From contig NZ_JAENJH010000003.1 of the NCBI RefSeq assembly GCF_016595675.1, forward strand, positions 62,001 to 126,000: DNA of 64,000 bases. The letters are read 5' to 3'. The DNA comes from Prauserella cavernicola. GTDB taxonomy: Bacteria > Actinomycetota > Actinomycetes > Mycobacteriales > Pseudonocardiaceae. Shown here in pieces: positions 50,104 through 60,781 of the stretch (its first letter is position 1; every line of letters starts with the position of its first letter). The translations under genes and the position numbers were made by a program. A model generated the notes under the pieces. The model was not told the DNA's origin and did not search any database. It saw only the letters and a list, made by a program, of their open reading frames with translations.

Positions 50104-50916
50104 GTGGCGCCGTTGATCTACACCGATGACGCGGCCGACGAGCGGCTCGACGACTTCCGGAACCTCACCACCGCCGACCGCAGACCGGACCGGCCTGGGG
50201 GCAGGGGTTTCGTGATCGCCGAGGGGACGGTCGTGGTGCGCAGGCTGATCGAGTCGCGGTACTCGCTGCGGGCGCTGCTCGGGGTCGAGCGCCGCTTCGC
50301 CGAGCTCGCCGACGACCTCGCCGACGTCACCGTGCCCGCCTACGTCACCTCGGCCGACGTGATGTCCGAGGTCGTGGGTTTCCACCTGAACCGGGGTGTG
50401 CTGGCCGTCGCCGACCGCGCGCCGCAGCCCTCGCCGGAGACGATCCTCGGGCACGCCCGCGTGCTCGCCGTGCTGGAGGGAGTCGGCGACCACGAGAACC
50501 TCGGGGCGCTGTTCCGCAACGCCGCGGCGCTGGGCGTGGACGGCGTGCTGCTGGGACCCGGCTGCGCCGACCCGCTGTACCGGCGCAGCGTGCGCGTCTC
50601 GATGGGACACGTGCTGCGGGTGCCCTTCGCGAGGCTCGACGACTGGCCCGGCGCGCTGGCAGGCCTGCGCGCACACGGTTTCCGCGTGGCGGCGCTCACC
50701 CCGCGAGCCGATGCGGTGGACCTCACTAAACTACCGAGCGAGGCTCCTCATGAGCGCGTGGCGCTGATGCTCGGCTCCGAGGGACACGGTCTCTCGGACG
50801 AGGCGCTCGCCGCCGCGGATCTGGCCGTTCGGATCCCGATGGCGAGCGGGGTGGACTCGCTCAACATCGCCACCGCTGCGGCCGTGGCTTTCTACGAGGT
50901 GACGAGGCGGGGTTGA
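50104..50916 (+). CDS. TrmH/SpoU-family RNA 2'-O-methyltransferase (Rv0881-like)
   Basis: A 270-residue enzyme with an N-terminal substrate-binding domain and the SPOUT knot: motif 1 DHENLGALFRNAAALG, motif 2 LMLGSEGHGLS, motif 3 IPMASGVDSLNIATAAAVAFYE. It should methylate rRNA or tRNA ribose with S-adenosylmethionine. GTG at 50104 follows GGGAGG. The following DUF2537 gene is almost contiguous, as in mycobacteria. Confidence 0.93.
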   Translation: MAPLIYTDDAADERLDDFRNLTTADRRPDRPGGRGFVIAEGTVVVRRLIESRYSLRALLGVERRFAELADDLADVTVPAYVTSADVMSEVVGFHLNRGVLAVADRAPQPSPETILGHARVLAVLEGVGDHENLGALFRNAAALGVDGVLLGPGCADPLYRRSVRVSMGHVLRVPFARLDDWPGALAGLRAHGFRVAALTPRADAVDLTKLPSEAPHERVALMLGSEGHGLSDEALAAADLAVRIPMASGVDSLNIATAAAVAFYEVTRRG

Positions 50917-50917
50917 G

Positions 50918-51553
50918 GTGGTGGCGGGCGCCGAGGTCGAGCTCCGGCTGTGTGGTGAGCGGGCCGTGCTCGCGGCGAGCGAGAACGGTCAGGAGGCCGA
51001 TCCGCGTTCGCTCGCGCTCGACTCCGAACTCGCCGACGCGCTGCACGAGTGGGCGCGGGTGGCCGCGGCACTGCGGCGAACGGACAGCGGAGAGGGCGCC
51101 GACGTGGTGGCCCGCAGGGGCAGGCAGCTCGCGGGGAGGGTCGCGGAGTCGCTGGGGCTCTCGGTGAGCTTCTGGGATCCGGCGACCGAACGGACGCTCG
51201 TGGTGACCCCGCCGCCGAGGCCACAGAGTTCACAGGGACCGCCGAGTGCGTCGCGCGCCACGCGGCTCATGGGCTCGCGACCGAGCGTCGACGAGCGGAC
51301 GCCGTGGGCCACGGGCCTCATCGTGGCTCTGTTCATGGCCGTGTTCGTGATCGTGGCCATGCTCGCGCTCGTGAACACGCTCGCCACCGAGACCTCGGCG
51401 TGGGTGGCGGTCGCCGCGGCCGTGGTGGTGAGTGCGGGCCTCGCGCCGTCGCTGTGGCTCGCGCGCAGGCTGCCGATCCTGCGCTGGGTGGTGCTCGGTG
51501 TGGCCGCCGGAGTGGTGCTGTCCTGGATCGGCGTGCTGGTGGTTGTCCTCTAG
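50918..51553 (+). CDS. DUF2537 membrane protein (Rv0882-like)
   Basis: A 211-residue protein: a soluble N-terminal 125 residues, then three hydrophobic segments (GLIVALFMAVFVIVAMLAL, WVAVAAAVVVSAGLAP, WVVLGVAAGVVLSWIGVLVVVL). Position after the methyltransferase matches Rv0882; the soluble part is longer than I recall there. Function unknown. Confidence 0.82.
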   Translation: MVAGAEVELRLCGERAVLAASENGQEADPRSLALDSELADALHEWARVAAALRRTDSGEGADVVARRGRQLAGRVAESLGLSVSFWDPATERTLVVTPPPRPQSSQGPPSASRATRLMGSRPSVDERTPWATGLIVALFMAVFVIVAMLALVNTLATETSAWVAVAAAVVVSAGLAPSLWLARRLPILRWVVLGVAAGVVLSWIGVLVVVL

Positions 51554-51938: not shown

Positions 51939-52014
51939 CAGAGATGGCCAGGTCGACGGAGTAATATGGAACACCCTGAAAGGCTCCATTCGGGCGACAG
52001 GTAGTTTGACCGCC

Positions 52015-52959
52015 ATGGTTTCGTCGAACGCAGTAGACGTATCCAATGTCGTGGTTACGGGGGGCAGCGGATTCATCGGCCGGGCGGTGGTCGCGGCACT
52101 GCGTCAGCAGGGTGCACGCGTCACGGTGGTCGACCGCGAACCAATCACGGTGCAGGACGAAGGGGTCACCGGTATCCAGGGTGATCTCGCGGATCCCGCT
52201 GTGCGGGAACGCGCCATCCTGCCCGGTACCGACGGCATCATCCACCTCGCCGCGATCACCTCGGTGCTTCGTTCGGTGGAGATGCCTGCCAAGACGTACT
52301 CGGAGAACGTCGCGATCACACACGAGCTGCTCGAGCTCGCGCGGATGCACGGAGTGCCGAGGTTCGTCCTGGCCTCGACCAATGCCGTCGTCGGCGACGT
52401 CGGCACCAACACCATCAACGAACACCTCCCGCTGGCGCCGCTCACGCCGTACGGCGCCACGAAGGCCGCCTGCGAGATGCTGATGTCCGGCTACGCGGGC
52501 GCCTATGGCATGACCACGTGTGCGTTGCGCTTCACCAACGTGTACGGGCCCGGAATGTCCCACAAGGACAGTTTCGTGCCCCGCCTGATGCGTGCGGCAC
52601 TGACCGACTCGGGTGTGAAGGTCTACGGCACCGGCGAACAGCGTCGCGACCTGGTGTTCCTCGACGACGTGGTGCGGGCCATCCTGCTCGCGCTCGGCTC
52701 CGGCCACGTCGGCAGGGCCATCGTCGGCGCGGGCCGCTCGGTGTCCGTGCTCGACCTGATCGAGACGGTGCGAGAGGTGACCGGGAATCCGATCCCGGTC
52801 GAGCACGTCCCGGCGCCCGGTGGCGAGATGCCCGCCGTCGTCGTGGACATCTCGCGCAGCGCCGAGACCATCGGCTACACGCCGGCCTACGACCTCAAGG
52901 CCGGACTCGCTGCCACCTGGCAGTACTTCCTAGACCACGACAGGCAGAAAGTGCGCTGA
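52015..52959 (+). CDS. NAD-dependent sugar-nucleotide epimerase/dehydratase
   Basis: A 314-residue extended short-chain dehydrogenase: NAD site VTGGSGFIG (about 16), a Ser-Thr substitution for the usual catalytic Ser/Thr in LASTNAVVGD, YGATK for the catalytic Tyr-Lys (about 145), and RDLVFLDDVVRAI. It resembles UDP-glucose 4-epimerases and related enzymes. ATG at 52015; an in-frame TTG three codons upstream is possible. The stop is directly followed by the GTG of the glycosyltransferase fusion, so both act in one pathway. Confidence 0.9.
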   Translation: MVSSNAVDVSNVVVTGGSGFIGRAVVAALRQQGARVTVVDREPITVQDEGVTGIQGDLADPAVRERAILPGTDGIIHLAAITSVLRSVEMPAKTYSENVAITHELLELARMHGVPRFVLASTNAVVGDVGTNTINEHLPLAPLTPYGATKAACEMLMSGYAGAYGMTTCALRFTNVYGPGMSHKDSFVPRLMRAALTDSGVKVYGTGEQRRDLVFLDDVVRAILLALGSGHVGRAIVGAGRSVSVLDLIETVREVTGNPIPVEHVPAPGGEMPAVVVDISRSAETIGYTPAYDLKAGLAATWQYFLDHDRQKVR

Positions 52960-55242
52960 GTGACCGGGTTCCTACGCCGCCACTGGCTTCTGCTCATCCT
53001 GCTCGCGGCAGGTGTCACCCTCCGCGTGCTGACCTGGCTCGCGTACCAGCCCGCCCTGCTCTACATCGACACCTTCCGCTACCTCAGCAATCTGGACCAG
53101 CTGAGGCCGACCGACCTGAACCCGCTCGGCTACACGGTGGTCCTCAAGGGACTGCTCGGGCTCGGCGGGTTCGGTTTCGTGGCGGCGGTGCAGCACCTCG
53201 TCGGGCTGCTCATCGCACTGGCCGTGTACCGGCTCGTCCTGCGCTACACGACACGGACCTGGCTCGCCGCCCTGGCGACGGCGCCCCTGCTGCTGGACGC
53301 CTACCAGCTGCAGATCGAAGAGAACATCATGTCGGAGGTCTGGTTCCAGGCCTTGCTGATGGGTGCGCTCTGGGCGCTGCTGGCGAAGGGCGCGCCGAAC
53401 TGGCGCAGGGCGGCGCTTGCGGGAGTGCTGATCGCGGCCGCCGTGCTCACCAGGACGATCGGCATCACCCTAGTCGTCCCGTTCGCGCTGTACCTGATCA
53501 TGGCGGGTGGTGCGTGGCGAACCCGCGCCGGCTGGAAGCGGATCGGCATCAGGGGGCTCGCGGGGCTGCTCGGCGTGGTGATTCCGCTCGTGGCCTACTC
53601 CGGGTACTTCGCTTCACAGGCGGGCCGGTGGGGGCTCACCGGCGCGCAGAGCAACGTCCTCTACGGCCGCACCGCGGCGATCGCCGACTGCAGCCAGCTG
53701 CCGTCCGGTGACGCGGGCCTGCTGATCTTCTGCCCGCCCGAGCCGATGGACGACCGGCTCGGCATCGACTACTACACGCACTTCCGCTACGGCAATCCGG
53801 ACTGGCCCTTCGTCCCGCTGCCCGACGGCCGGACCAAGGAACAGCTGGCCAACGAGTTCGCGTGGACGGTCATCGGGAACCAGCCCTTCACCTTCGCGGG
53901 GGCGATCCTCGAGGACTTCGCGAAGAACTTCTCGCCGCTCAAGATCACCTTCCCCAACGACGTGCCGGTGGAGCGATGGCAGTTCCAGACCGTCTACCCG
54001 TTCCACGACATCGGGGCCGAGAGCGTGCAGGTGTACAACGGGACCACGCTCGCGAGGGACGGCGTGCTGCCCGGCGTCGACCTCGAACTGGCGTCCTTCC
54101 TGCGTAACTACCAGCTCCACGGCGGGTACACGTGGGGTCCCCTGCTCGCCATCGCCAGCCTGGCCGGTCTGCTTGGGGCACTCGGTGTCGGCCGGGCCAG
54201 ACGCTCGGGTCTACGCTCTGCCGCATTCCTCGCCACGGGAAGTGGCCTGATTCTTCTGCTCGGCTCCGCCGCGTTCGAGTTCTCCTGGAGGTACCAGTTG
54301 CCCGCGCTCCTCTTGCTGCCGCTCGGAGGTGCGCTCGGCGCCGCCGCGATGTTCGGCCTCGCCAAGCGTGATCCCGGGTCTGGCGGCCGTCGCCCGAACA
54401 TGGCCGACTATCCGGACGAGGTCGACGACGGTGCCGTCGCCGGCTTCAGCGCCCGCTACGGCGACGGCAGGCTCACGCCGATCGTCGTGGTGATCGCCGC
54501 CTACAACGAGGCCAAGGGCATCGGCGCGGTGCTGCGGAACATGCCCACGCACTGCGGCGACCTGCCGGTCTCGACGCTCGTCGTCGTGGACGGTGCCACC
54601 GACAACACGGCCGAGATCGCCGCGGAGAACGGCGCGTACGTGTGCGTGGCTCCGAGCAACCGCGGTCAGGGTGGCGCGCTGCGGCTCGGTTACCACCTGG
54701 CCGCCCAGTACGGCGCCGAGTACATCGTCACCACCGACGCCGACGGTCAGTACGACAACGCCGAGATGCCGATGCTCGTCAAGCCGCTGCTGGACGGCAC
54801 CGCGGACTTCGTGACGGGTTCGCGCAGGCTCGGCACCGGTCAGTACGACAGCAAGGTGCGCTGGCTCGGCGTCCGCGTTTTCGCAGTTCTGGCCACAATT
54901 CTCACAAATCGGAAGATAACGGACACGTCATTCGGTTTTCGGGCGATGAAAGCAGAATTGGCAACTTCCGTAACTCTGCGTGAACCGCAGTATCAATCGT
55001 CCGAGTTGTTGCTCGGAGTAATGGCTCAGGGCGCCAGGGTGCTCGAGGTGCCGATGACGATGCACCTGCGCAACAACGGCCAGAGCAAGAAGGGCCGCAG
55101 CCTCAAGTACGGCGCCAACTACGCCCGCGTCATGACCGGGACCTGGCTGCGCGAGTACGTGCTGCGGGGCGGCAAGCGCAAGCAGCGGGCGGCGCGCGCC
55201 GAGCGCCTGGCTGCGGCAACGAACGCACGAGAGACCGCCTGA
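52960..55242 (+). CDS. Fusion of GT-C-like membrane glycosyltransferase and DPM1-type GT2
   Basis: A 760-residue fusion. Residues 1-475 have about ten membrane segments and a first extracytoplasmic loop with an aspartate (LLYIDTFRYL, Asp37), the pattern of lipid-linked-sugar GT-C enzymes. Residues 505-740 are a GT-A domain of the dolichyl-phosphate mannosyltransferase type: VVIAAYNEAKGIGAVL, VVVDGATDNT, catalytic TTDADGQYDN (about 590), GFRAM and a basic C-terminal tail. The GT2 half could load a sugar on polyprenyl phosphate and the membrane half could use it outside. Around 54880-55025 codon use turns AT-rich. Sugar and acceptor unknown. Confidence 0.88.
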   Translation: MTGFLRRHWLLLILLAAGVTLRVLTWLAYQPALLYIDTFRYLSNLDQLRPTDLNPLGYTVVLKGLLGLGGFGFVAAVQHLVGLLIALAVYRLVLRYTTRTWLAALATAPLLLDAYQLQIEENIMSEVWFQALLMGALWALLAKGAPNWRRAALAGVLIAAAVLTRTIGITLVVPFALYLIMAGGAWRTRAGWKRIGIRGLAGLLGVVIPLVAYSGYFASQAGRWGLTGAQSNVLYGRTAAIADCSQLPSGDAGLLIFCPPEPMDDRLGIDYYTHFRYGNPDWPFVPLPDGRTKEQLANEFAWTVIGNQPFTFAGAILEDFAKNFSPLKITFPNDVPVERWQFQTVYPFHDIGAESVQVYNGTTLARDGVLPGVDLELASFLRNYQLHGGYTWGPLLAIASLAGLLGALGVGRARRSGLRSAAFLATGSGLILLLGSAAFEFSWRYQLPALLLLPLGGALGAAAMFGLAKRDPGSGGRRPNMADYPDEVDDGAVAGFSARYGDGRLTPIVVVIAAYNEAKGIGAVLRNMPTHCGDLPVSTLVVVDGATDNTAEIAAENGAYVCVAPSNRGQGGALRLGYHLAAQYGAEYIVTTDADGQYDNAEMPMLVKPLLDGTADFVTGSRRLGTGQYDSKVRWLGVRVFAVLATILTNRKITDTSFGFRAMKAELATSVTLREPQYQSSELLLGVMAQGARVLEVPMTMHLRNNGQSKKGRSLKYGANYARVMTGTWLREYVLRGGKRKQRAARAERLAAATNARETA

Positions 55243-55265
55243 GCGCTCCACCGACAAGGGCTGTC

Positions 55266-55314
55266 AACGAGAACGGTCCCGACCACCGGACTGGTGGTCG
55301 GGACCGTTCTCGTT
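55266..55314. terminator. Bidirectional terminator between the GT fusion and gtrA-like gene
   Basis: A perfect 22-bp stem (AACGAGAACGGTCCCGACCA and two more bases) with a five-base loop separates converging genes. Confidence 0.9.
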
Positions 55315-55346
55315 GGTTTGAGCAGGCCTCTCGGGCTGCTGAAATT

Positions 55347-55850
55347 TCAGGGCTTCGGCGTGGGCGGGGGGATGCTGCCCCGGCGGTACACGAGCCGGTC
55401 GAGCAGCGCGAACTTGAAGACGAAGACGATCGCGTAGCTGCTCAGGAACGCCGCATCCAGCACGAGGATGCGGGCGAGGCCGGAGATCTCGAGCGGCTCG
55501 GTGATCATGCCCGCGACGGTGGTCAGACCCACCGACGCGACGGCCCCGAGCCCGATGACGGCCAGGTAGGGCAGCAGTTCCCGCTTGAAGTCGGGCTTGC
55601 CCTTGCGTCCCCAGGCCCAGCGCCTGGCGACGAAATAATTAGGGATCGCGCCCGCCACGAAGGCGACCGCGCTGGCTGCTGTGGGGCTCGAACCCCACCA
55701 CAACAGACCGATCAGGGCGACCTGGCTCGTGGCCGTGGCCAGAACCGAGCTGGCACCTGCCCTGACCAGGCGAGCGAAAAGCCGCGGCTGGCCGGCATGC
55801 GGCTGCTGCGGCGTCGGCAAGCTAGCGGTTACGGCGCTCACATCCCCCAT
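55347..55850 (-). CDS. GtrA-family membrane protein (candidate lipid-linked sugar flippase)
   Basis: A 167-residue protein with four membrane segments and the GtrA pattern (FARLVRAGASSVLATATSQVALIG; SAVAFVAGAIPNYFVARRWAWG). By family, GtrA proteins are thought to move polyprenyl-phosphate sugars across the membrane. It lies between the GT fusion and the sulfoquinovose-synthase-like gene, so it fits a flipping step between the two halves of the fusion. Confidence 0.88.
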   Translation of the reverse strand: MGDVSAVTASLPTPQQPHAGQPRLFARLVRAGASSVLATATSQVALIGLLWWGSSPTAASAVAFVAGAIPNYFVARRWAWGRKGKPDFKRELLPYLAVIGLGAVASVGLTTVAGMITEPLEISGLARILVLDAAFLSSYAIVFVFKFALLDRLVYRRGSIPPPTPKP

Positions 55851-56009
55851 TGTGCCAACCGCCTTTCGGGTGGTCGCAACAGCGTCCCTATTCTTACCGC
55901 GGGTTGATGTCAGCCCGTTATTAAGACAAGGTGGACCGGACAAGGGACCAGCGCATCCGAAGATCAATCTCGGTGCACGGTCAGGTAACGATCTGGAGGA
56001 AGTCGAGTC
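55851..56009. other. Divergent promoter region of gtrA-like and sqdB-like genes
   Basis: About 160 bp, AT-richer than its surroundings (with a TTATTAAG stretch). It should drive both genes. GGAGGA at 55995-56000 is the ribosome-binding site of the plus-strand gene. No palindrome of operator quality seen. Confidence 0.45.
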
Positions 56010-57164
56010 GTGCGAGTCCTCGTACTCGGTGGTGACGGATATCTGGGGTGGCCGACAGCGCTTCACCTCTCGGACCGTGGCCACGAGGTTGCAGTGGCGG
56101 ACAACTTCGCCCGCAGGAAGTATGACGAAGAGCTTGGCTCCCAGAGCCTGGTGGCCATCGAGGACCTGAGCGTCAGAGTGGCCGCGTGGAAGGAAGTTTC
56201 CGGCAAGGACATGCCCCTGTATGAGGGCGACCTCGTCGATGCCGACTTCGTGTACCAGATGGTCAGGGAGTTCCAGCCCGACTCGATCATCCACTTTGCT
56301 GAGCAGCGCGCTGCTCCGTACTCGATGATCGACCGCGAACACGCGGTGTACACCCAGTACAACAACGTTGTCGGCAACCTCAACGTGATGTACGCGATCG
56401 CCGAGATCAACCCGGACATCCACCTGGTGAAGCTCGGCACGCTCGGCGAGTACGGCACGCCGAACATCGACATCGAAGAGGGCTGGATCGAGATCGAGCA
56501 CAACGGTCGCAAGGACCGGATGCTCTTCCCGAAGAAGCCGGGCTCCTTCTACCACCTGTCGAAGGTGCACGACTCGCACAACATCGAGTTCGGCTGCCGG
56601 ATCTGGGGCATGCGCGCCACCGACCTGAACCAGGGCGTGGTGTACGGGCAGCAGACCGAGCAGACGGTCCGCGACCCGCGCCTGGCGACCCGGCTCGACT
56701 ACGACGCGGTATTCGGCACCGTGCTGAACCGCTTCGTGATCCAGGCCGTGCTGGGCCAGCCGCTGTCGGTGTACGGCAAGGGCGGCCAGACCCGCGGCAT
56801 GCTGGACATCCGCGACACGGTGGAGTGCCTGCGCCTGGCCGTCGAGAACCCGGCCGACCGTGGCGAGTTCCGGGTGTTCAACCAGATCACCGAGAGCTAC
56901 TCGGTGAAGCAGGTGGCCGAGCTGGTGTCCGAGACCTTCCCGGGTCCGGTTCAGATCGACTACCTGGACAACCCGCGCTGGGAGCTGGCGGAGCACTACT
57001 ACAACGTCAAGCACAGCGGCCTGCTCGAGCTGGGTCTGCAGCCGCACCTGCTCTCCGACACCCTGATCGAGTCGCTGTTCCCCATCGTCGAGGAGAACAA
57101 GCACCGGGTGAACATGGAGAACATGCTGCCCAAGGTCAAGTGGGCGAGCCCGAAGAACAGCTGA
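56010..57164 (+). CDS. UDP-sulfoquinovose synthase-like enzyme (SQD1/SqdB type)
   Basis: A 384-residue enzyme strikingly like plant SQD1: NAD site GGDGYLGW (7-14), EQRAAPYSMIDREHAVYTQYNNV, KLGTLGEYGTPNIDIEEGW, SFYHLSKVHDSHNI, ATDLNQGVVYG, RLDYDAVFGTVLNRFVIQA, YGKGGQTRGMLDIRDTVEC. Thr144, Tyr181 and Lys185 line up with the catalytic Thr145, Tyr182 and Lys186 of the Arabidopsis enzyme. The expected reaction is UDP-glucose plus sulfite to UDP-sulfoquinovose. GTG at 56010 follows GGAGGA. No SqdX/SQD2 lipid transferase is next to it, so the product may enter another glycan. Confidence 0.9.
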   Translation: MRVLVLGGDGYLGWPTALHLSDRGHEVAVADNFARRKYDEELGSQSLVAIEDLSVRVAAWKEVSGKDMPLYEGDLVDADFVYQMVREFQPDSIIHFAEQRAAPYSMIDREHAVYTQYNNVVGNLNVMYAIAEINPDIHLVKLGTLGEYGTPNIDIEEGWIEIEHNGRKDRMLFPKKPGSFYHLSKVHDSHNIEFGCRIWGMRATDLNQGVVYGQQTEQTVRDPRLATRLDYDAVFGTVLNRFVIQAVLGQPLSVYGKGGQTRGMLDIRDTVECLRLAVENPADRGEFRVFNQITESYSVKQVAELVSETFPGPVQIDYLDNPRWELAEHYYNVKHSGLLELGLQPHLLSDTLIESLFPIVEENKHRVNMENMLPKVKWASPKNS

Positions 57165-57236: not shown

Positions 57237-58091
57237 CTATCCCCGCTGGCTGCGGACGCCGAGCAGGACGTCCTCCCAGGCGGGCACGGCGGGGTGGTTC
57301 TTGCGCTTGGGCTTGGGCTTCGCCTGGCGCGCGCCCTCCGGCTCCGGCATGAGCGCCCCGTCGTCCTCGGCTCGCACCCTCGGCAGTTCCGTGGTGTCGT
57401 CCTCGACGGGCTCCGGGATGGGCGCCTCGATGACCTTCGCGCCCGTGCTGACGCCGTAGTCGAACATCGGCTGCTCGTCGTCGGGCCGCTCCACGGCCCT
57501 CGGGGTGCGGTAGGAGTTCGGGTCGAGCAGCGCCTCGGCGAGCTCGTCGATCGCGGCGATGGTGCCACCGTGCGCTCCGGGCGAGAACGCCCAGTGCGCG
57601 CGGTTCTCCGACCGCCCTGCCATCCAGTGCAGCCCGACGATCCACCGGCCGTCCTCGCCGCGCCACGCGTCCCAGCTCGCCTGCGAGTAGTCCTGGCCGC
57701 GGGCGCCGAACGAGTACGCGACGACCTCGCCGAGCGTCTGCACGTCGGGGCCGTCCTCGCGCACCGGGTGCGCCTGCTGGGCGAGCTCGGCGGTGCGGGA
57801 GCGCTCGAGCAGAACGGGGTAGGCGAACCGCTCGACGCGCTGGATCGGCACGCCGGCCGCCGTGGCGACCTGCTCGACCGACTCGCCCGCCCTGATCCGG
57901 GTCTGAATTTCGCGTGGTCGCATCTGGCTCTCCAGCTCGATCTCGATCTGGCCGAGGCGGGTGGCGTCGCCCCGGGCGGCCGCGCGCAGCCGTTCGTCCG
58001 CGGGCAGCAGGAAACGCTCGCGGCGCGCCGGGTCCTCGCACACGATGGACTTGCCGTCCTCGTGCAGCCCGACCACCCTTAGCGTTCGCAT
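57237..58091 (-). CDS. sepH: Septation protein SepH (DUF3071)
   Basis: A 284-residue cell-division protein. The N-terminal DUF3071 (MRTLRVVGLHEDGKSIVCEDP ... RPREIQTRIRAGESVEQVATAAGVPIQRVERFAYPVLLERSRTAELA compressed here to its key blocks) includes the helix-turn-helix known from Streptomyces SepH, which binds and assembles FtsZ. The C-terminal third is acidic then basic and low-complexity. GGGAGGCGGG precedes the ATG. Position before serC matches Rv0883c. Confidence 0.93.
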   Translation of the reverse strand: MRTLRVVGLHEDGKSIVCEDPARRERFLLPADERLRAAARGDATRLGQIEIELESQMRPREIQTRIRAGESVEQVATAAGVPIQRVERFAYPVLLERSRTAELAQQAHPVREDGPDVQTLGEVVAYSFGARGQDYSQASWDAWRGEDGRWIVGLHWMAGRSENRAHWAFSPGAHGGTIAAIDELAEALLDPNSYRTPRAVERPDDEQPMFDYGVSTGAKVIEAPIPEPVEDDTTELPRVRAEDDGALMPEPEGARQAKPKPKRKNHPAVPAWEDVLLGVRSQRG

Positions 58092-58217
58092 CCCGCCTCC
58101 CAAAGCGCGTTCACCGTAGTGGGTGTTAACCGTAGAACGGCGCGTCGCCTTGACCGGCGAGGCGCGCCGAGTCAACGGCACATCCGTCTCGGTGATTTTC
58201 CCGCGTACCAACATGGT

Positions 58218-58262
58218 GAGGGCCGCCTTCCCCCGCGGTGCAAGCGGAAAAAGGCGGCCCTC
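58218..58262 (-). terminator. Terminator of serC
   Basis: Perfect 12-bp stem GAGGGCCGCCTT / AAGGCGGCCCTC, 16 bp past the serC stop, with an inner CCGC/GCGG pair. Confidence 0.82.
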
Positions 58263-58278
58263 GCCGCAAAACGGGAAA

Positions 58279-60781
<2,503 letters not shown>

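Follow-up and report, generated by a model that had tools for sequence, protein, structure and literature searches.

A locus of four genes that probably encodes, as a whole, an extracytoplasmic glycosylation system of the three-component (GtrA/GtrB/GT-C) type for sulfoquinovose or a derivative of it was found in Prauserella cavernicola (GCF_016595675.1, contig NZ_JAENJH010000003.1, positions 62,001-126,000 of the forward strand). This whole stretch of 64,000 nt is called the window, and the coordinates below refer to it. The locus (52006-57164) contains genes for a short-chain dehydrogenase/reductase (SDR) protein, here named EPI, for a fusion of a GT-C-like membrane glycosyltransferase (GT) with a GT2 domain, for a GtrA family protein and for an SQD1-like protein; the presence of all four, reported in an initial annotation, was confirmed. 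The EPI and fusion genes abut (52959/52960), the fusion and GtrA genes are convergent, and the GtrA and SQD1-like genes are divergent. The features of the locus are as follows.

52006..52959, + strand: EPI, SDR protein resembling NAD-dependent epimerases; begins with ATG at 52015 or, in a longer form, with TTG at 52006
52381..52383, + strand: EPI Asn126 codon; aligns with the catalytic Ser/Thr of SDR proteins (alignment to MoeE5 ASSSSVYG)
52564..52566, + strand: EPI Lys187 codon, in the loop GM-x-H-K-D-S
52960-55242, + strand: GT-C-like/GT2 fusion, 760 residues
52960..54399, + strand: membrane half at the N terminus of the fusion (about aa 1-480); GT-C/PMT-like, on weak matches
54481..55119, + strand: GT2 half at the C terminus of the fusion (aa 508-720), predicted polyprenyl-phosphate glycosyltransferase (DPMS/ArnC) class
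55268..55312, strand not assigned: perfect hairpin resembling a terminator, in the gap between the convergent fusion and GtrA genes (folding z = -9.5 for 55255-55330, the region around it)
55347..55850, - strand: small membrane protein of the GtrA family, a candidate for flipping a lipid-linked sugar
56010..57164, + strand: predicted SQD1-like UDP-sulfoquinovose synthase, A-type
56442..56444, + strand: Leu145 codon of the SQD1-like protein, in KLGTLGEYG

In the proposed pathway, the SQD1-like enzyme would convert UDP-glucose and sulfite to UDP-sulfoquinovose, and this product would probably be the substrate of EPI, in the simplest case a 4-epimerase for acidic UDP-hexoses. On the cytoplasmic side, the GT2 half of the fusion would then load the sugar on polyprenyl phosphate. 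GtrA would bring the resulting lipid-linked sugar to the outer side, where the outward-facing GT-C-like half would pass the sugar on to a wall polymer, a lipoglycan or a protein as surface acceptor. What we infer is each enzyme activity, the direction in which the pathway runs, the involvement of an epimerase and the nature of the acceptor. What was observed is the gene content, its conserved linkage, the co-occurrence of the genes and the in-place exchange of SQD1, and the last three lend support to the predicted pathway of synthesis, GT2 loading, GtrA flipping and GT-C transfer that the initial annotation had put forward.

The in-place exchange is the strongest evidence short of chemistry. 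Two types of SQD1, 43-45% identical to each other, were distinguished: the A-type, found in the window, with the plant SQD1 motif KLGT-GEYG, and the B-type, with the motif HLGTMGVYG. In the SQD1 tree, which took in no cyanobacterial SqdB, the B-type formed a starred clade of 19 rows including S. meliloti and Palleronia plasmid proteins, and plant SQD1 was placed between the two types on a long branch, for which the program warned of long branches meeting. S. meliloti sqdB is a sulfolipid gene; its record names the epimerase family only. In seven genomes of two genera (G033, G067, G095, G115, G132 and G148 of one genus, and G041 of another), a B-type gene replaces the A-type gene at the same chromosomal place, while EPI (77-86% identical), the fusion and GtrA are kept. 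The genes of window 50104-51553 and 57237-60781, presumably those for an rRNA methyltransferase, SepH, SerC and a beta-lactamase-like protein, flank these loci in the same order; in G041 the B-type gene is inverted. The swap of two SQD1 types while the other genes stayed argues that the locus needs a product that both types share, most likely UDP-sulfoquinovose. A neighbourhood due to mere shared ancestry was considered and rejected, given that the core stays together while the flanks change between genera and that inertia would hardly account for one SQD1 type taking the place of the other at a single site.

The conservation of the layout was scored by tblastn (E<=1e-5, within 6.5 kb) in the best 80 of at least 555 SQD1 relatives in genome contigs, which are 73-91% identical to the window protein. 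The exact layout, EPI+ GTC+ GT2+ GtrA- SQD1+, was found in 69 of these 80, an arrangement that is far beyond chance. GT2 was present in all 80, EPI in 78, GtrA in 77 and the membrane GT (GTC) in 75; the deviants were three loci without a GtrA match, three with the membrane GT behind SQD1, three without a membrane GT and two cut short at a contig end. The 80 relatives came from Pseudonocardiaceae, Kribbella, Microlunatus, Actinopolyspora, a metagenome-assembled genome of Streptosporangiaceae and others, and the SQD1 loci found include those of Amycolatopsis orientalis, A. rifamycinica, Saccharopolyspora spinosa and many Kribbella and Saccharomonospora. When gene calls from 121 stretches, some of them sharing a genome, were clustered, SQD1 was found in 115, EPI in 91 and the fusion in 90, with at most 27 for any non-core family; for GtrA the tblastn count is preferred, because the gene caller found this short gene in only 27 of the 121 stretches. 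One record in the set (L074/G541) is titled Candidatus Melainabacteria, and its SQD1 contig number and coordinates are those of G011, a genome of the window's family, so that the title seems wrong.

Co-occurrence was surveyed in 150 genomes of the family, with thresholds of E<=1e-80 for SQD1, E<=1e-70 for EPI and at least 44% identity for the fusion or its halves. SQD1 was detected in 65/150 genomes, EPI in 62/150 and the GT pair in 62/150; at E<=1e-40 the GT count would be 64/150, and the two genomes dropped show 32-34% matches. The EPI and GT genome sets are identical, and 60 of their 62 members also have SQD1, leaving five genomes with SQD1 alone (G082 and four genomes of one genus) and two with EPI and GT but without a called SQD1. 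One of these two (G103) carries A-type SQD1 pieces at two contig ends, so that its missing SQD1 is due to an assembly gap. At 66 SQD1 places in the family, the GT-C-like and GT2 domains were adjacent as a fusion in 40 cases and as separate neighbours in 13, and GT2 stood alone in three. SQD1 was not within several kb of the EPI-GT-GtrA genes in four genomes, being about 200 kb away on the same contig in G018 and on other contigs in three drafts (G056, G002 and G048). In a class-wide survey of 394 genomes (E<=1e-60 for both SQD1 and EPI; only the best four or five candidates per genome scored), SQD1 was detected in 19 genomes and EPI in eight, and SQD1 lay within about 4 kb of EPI in 8/8 of the latter; in one of them (G279) it is a B-type fragment, cut off where the contig ends. 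The genes are thus kept together in relatives, a point on which the initial annotation had staked its proposal: order and strands are the same in 69 of the 80 closest relatives, and the set co-occurs in 60 of the 150 family genomes.

The SQD1-like protein matched the Arabidopsis SQD1 structures (1qrr/1i24) over residues 2-379 with 516 bits, that is, along its full length, and no second SQD1-type match at E<=0.001 was found in the window genome. An alignment of 122 proteins, made up of plant SQD1, the window protein, those of 76 of the 80 closest loci and 44 others, showed that the window protein retains the active-site residues Thr, Tyr and Lys. The residues important in Agl3 of Sulfolobus acidocaldarius (His, Arg, Glu and Tyr) are also retained. 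According to the passages of PMC4388408 on Agl3, replacement of His95, Arg101, Met145, Tyr182 or Lys186 by Ala gave an inactive protein, and the T144A protein remained active, so that conservation of the Thr is a weak test. The Met next to this Thr is replaced by Leu145 in the window protein (KLGTLGEYG), which is alone in this among 78 rows (plant, window and 76 close loci). Met stands at this place in three genomes of the same genus and in 41 of the 44 other proteins, and Leu recurs in a more distant, plasmid-borne Pseudonocardia relative (L150). The earlier statement that all three catalytic residues are conserved stood for Thr, Tyr and Lys as such, but the Thr carries little information and the change from Met to Leu had been overlooked. 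Comparison with one genome of the same genus (dN 0.024, dS 0.287) shows purifying selection on the gene. Synthesis of UDP-sulfoquinovose by the SQD1-like enzyme is predicted with higher confidence than the pathway as a whole.

EPI had been given no role in the pathway as first outlined, and it proved to be a near-exclusive partner of SQD1; because of this co-occurrence it is likely a step of the SQD1 pathway. Against solved structures, EPI matched MoeE5 better than UDP-glucose 4-epimerase by profile (207 vs 189 bits), and the order was reversed by single sequence (137 vs 138 bits). Tyr149 and Lys153 are present in 89/89 EPI proteins. The loop GM-x-H-K-D-S, in which Lys, Asp and Ser are kept in 89/89 and His in 80/89, stands at the RPDM loop of MoeE5, and its His aligns with the MoeE5 Arg. 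We take MoeE5 to be a UDP-glucuronate 4-epimerase and the Arg of its RPDM loop to read the carboxylate. The cationic loop of EPI would fit an acidic C6, such as that of UDP-sulfoquinovose, and the chance that UDP-sulfoquinovose is the substrate of EPI is put at about even. A more tentative proposal, which we consider rather doubtful, is that EPI, with its non-standard active site, would give the C4 epimer (6-sulfo-6-deoxygalactose) or another derivative, and that an undescribed sulfonated sugar would be brought to the surface by the fused GT-C/GT2 protein.

The GT2 half, the GtrA protein and the GT-C-like membrane half would make up the set of a three-component system. The GT2 domain match in the fusion covers residues 510-667 (57.6 bits). 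Among solved structures this half is nearest to dolichol-phosphate mannose synthase (DPMS) and ArnC, which places it in the predicted polyprenyl-phosphate class; its NCBIfam scores with the PpgS and DPMS/ArnC-type families are all far below the equivalog cut-offs. Asp593 and Asp595 of the DAD motif are invariant in 49/49 orthologues of the fusion. A simple hydropathy scan gave eight hydrophobic segments in the membrane half and a ninth peak inside the GT2 domain. The loop that follows the first segment contains Asp37, which is invariant in 49/49, and the membrane half has one large loop; the inside or outside orientation of these loops in our scheme is a prediction. PMT_2 matched 24 and PMT 19 of the 49 orthologues, weakly (E<=0.01), and a split homologue of the membrane half passed the PMT_2 cut-off (26.5 vs 26.1 bits). 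The window GtrA was above its Pfam cut-off, in keeping with a flippase-like partner, and PF04138 was matched by 77 of the 78 members of the GtrA alignment (E<=0.001). The window genome has six GtrA places in all, one of which (G000:C22:400190-400546) is part of a 763-residue open frame.

Several observations weigh against the proposed pathway. The SQD1-like protein scored 473.9 bits with the NCBIfam model of UDP-sulfoquinovose synthase (NF041015), below the equivalog cut-off of 575; this model may be built for a narrower branch, because four other scanned actinobacterial SQD1 proteins also score only 312-475 bits. Leu145 takes the position of a Met that, when changed to Ala, leaves Agl3 inactive. 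The simplest reading is that this conservative change slows the enzyme or does not harm it, and it is a caveat for the window strain, not for the locus. In EPI, the place that we take to be that of the SDR catalytic Ser/Thr holds Asn in 89/89 proteins, so that "epimerase" is a family name only. The PMT_2 match to the window membrane half was sub-threshold (21.7 bits vs a cut-off of 26.1). As to linkage, the count of 69 in 80 covers the closest relatives, not all SQD1 genes; neither GT was found within 6 kb in 10 of the 66 SQD1 places of the family; and one 90% complete genome (G120) remains an exception, with EPI and GT but without a detected SQD1. In the class-wide survey, 12 of the 19 SQD1 genomes had no EPI above threshold, one of the 12 (G289) having fragments of both SQD1 and EPI. 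Fisher tests of co-occurrence gave very small values with kinship ignored, and the counts are likewise uncorrected for kinship. Moreover, at one locus (L135) the EPI-fusion set and a GT4 gene stand beside SQD1, the GT4 being of the same cluster as that paired with SQD1 elsewhere.

The GT4 gene bears on another explanation, in which the locus serves ordinary synthesis of sulfoquinovosyl diacylglycerol (SQDG): SQD1 would supply a lipid glycosyltransferase encoded elsewhere, and the GT genes near SQD1 would have another function. SQD1 and SqdB are classically sulfolipid enzymes, a GT4 gene adjoins some actinobacterial SQD1 genes (L114 and L118 by Pfam, L123 by cluster), and among several GT4 genes in the window genome the one nearest to that of L118 is 34% identical to it. 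However, at the locus SQD1 is partnered by a GT2 of the polyprenyl-phosphate type, a membrane GT and GtrA; SQD1 comes together with EPI and the GT pair in 60 genomes; and the GT4 arrangement is mostly separate from the EPI-fusion one. In a weak search for SqdX/SqdD-like genes in the window genome, no close relative of the SQD1-linked GT4 was found with a query that matches many GT4 genes, and a GT8 query, which had no positive control, gave no match. A sulfolipid-only function was rejected as the leading interpretation because of the partner genes, and SQDG synthesis is considered quite unlikely.

The three-component system might instead carry an ordinary sugar, such as galactose or a uronic acid made by EPI, with SQD1 linked for another reason. 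This would agree with the nearest matches of EPI, UDP-glucose 4-epimerase by single sequence or MoeE5 by profile, and with the Glc, Gal, GlcNAc or ribofuranose carried by the three-component systems described in the passages of PMC11127046 and PMC7389260 that were covered. EPI orthologues are nevertheless found nearly only alongside SQD1 (8/8 class-wide; 60 or 61 of 62 in the family), and SQD1 of either type is kept with them, which makes this explanation unlikely. It is also conceivable that the SQD1-like enzyme makes some other C6-modified sugar, by addition of a nucleophile other than sulfite to the 5,6-ene. The score below the NF041015 cut-off would allow this, as would the formation of UDP-glucose-5,6-ene by Agl3 in the absence of sulfite (passages of PMC4388408); the high similarity to SQD1 along the whole length and the exchange with a second SQD1 type in seven genomes speak against it, and we regard it as very unlikely. 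The preferred interpretation is thus still surface glycosylation with sulfoquinovose or a derivative.

Sulfoquinovose is the head group of the photosynthetic sulfolipid; SQDG is the product served by plant SQD1 and by cyanobacterial and alphaproteobacterial SqdB, whose partners are of the SqdX/SQD2 or SqdD type. The window A-type protein is similar to plant SQD1 along its whole length, and the B-type replacement groups with alphaproteobacterial proteins, those of the S. meliloti and Palleronia plasmids. The GT2 half matches the PpgS and DPMS/ArnC families and differs from them by its fusion to a membrane GT. In the covered passages of PMC11127046 and PMC7389260, three-component systems consist of synthesis of a lipid-linked donor, GtrA-type flipping and GT-C transfer outside, the flipping by GtrA proteins being proposed, not directly demonstrated. 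With GtrA/GtrB/Gtr(type) and GtcA/CsbB/YfhO as described there, the locus has in common a GT2, a candidate flippase of the GtrA family and a membrane GT. Unlike them, it fuses the GT2 and the membrane GT in one polypeptide and adds a predicted UDP-sulfoquinovose synthase and a partner SDR protein. Sulfoquinovose is also a sugar of Sulfolobus glycoconjugates, and there Agl3 is a UDP-sulfoquinovose synthase that serves glycoconjugates, as proposed for the locus (passages of PMC4388408). The use of sulfoquinovose outside photosynthetic lipid synthesis, to which the initial annotation had drawn attention, thus already has an archaeal precedent as far as glycoconjugates are concerned. The Agl3 pathway is archaeal, and Agl3, which was not in our alignment, belongs to another branch of the family by the clusters of that paper; its passages on Agl3 describe no GtrA/GT fusion locus. 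The tree in PMC4388408 lists SACE_5690, by its name a Saccharopolyspora erythraea gene, among the UDP-sulfoquinovose synthases, so that the enzyme family is already noted in this actinobacterial group, and the present locus is not described in the passages covered. No described actinobacterial system of this layout was known to the initial annotation, and searches of open-licence PMC papers listed none.

SQD1 was also found in other settings. In other families, GT2, PMT_2-type or LPG_synthase_TM-type genes occur near SQD1, with only parts of these sets passing the cut-offs. PMT_2 proteins were above cut-off in L117 and L119. LPG_synthase_TM proteins were found near SQD1 at L115:6412-7425 (the only one above cut-off), L119:8321-9277 and L122:14734-15723; no GtrA match was seen at these three loci, and the LPG_synthase_TM proteins may replace GtrA as flippase. 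In another genus of the family (G141 and G057), L129:4559-10558 and L133:9355-15363 carry a B-type SQD1, an HlyD-like protein, a GT2 synthase and a glucoamylase-like protein (neighbours named by cluster in L129 and by Pfam in L133), a possible sulfonated exopolysaccharide locus. A methyltransferase cluster is present in 12 of the 121 stretches (L112:8628-9383) and stands beside SQD1 or GtrA in L040, L050, L110, L112, L113 and L127, a possible sign that the sugar is methylated.

Three further settings are on plasmids. On that of Rhodococcus qingshengii (L151:3430-14945), a B-type SQD1 stands with a SulP transporter, a glycosyltransferase, a protein with an alkyl sulfatase domain and a weakly BcsB-like protein below cut-off. 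On that of Pseudonocardia autotrophica (L150:6663-12939), a window-type SQD1, with Leu at the Met place and Lys at the Glu place, adjoins GT2 and cysteine synthase family genes. On that of the haloarchaeon Natrinema versiforme (L153:8001-12934), an SQD1-like gene is followed by two epimerase-family genes and by genes for a DUF2304 protein and a methyltransferase.

Relative to the known three-component systems, the sulfonated donor sugar would be new. If the proposed pathway is correct, heterotrophic actinobacteria would display a sulfonated sugar on their envelope, and an unseen cell-surface component of industrial strains would be named. Producers of sulfoquinovose outside photosynthesis would be added, together with enzymes for loading sulfonated sugars on polyprenyl carriers.

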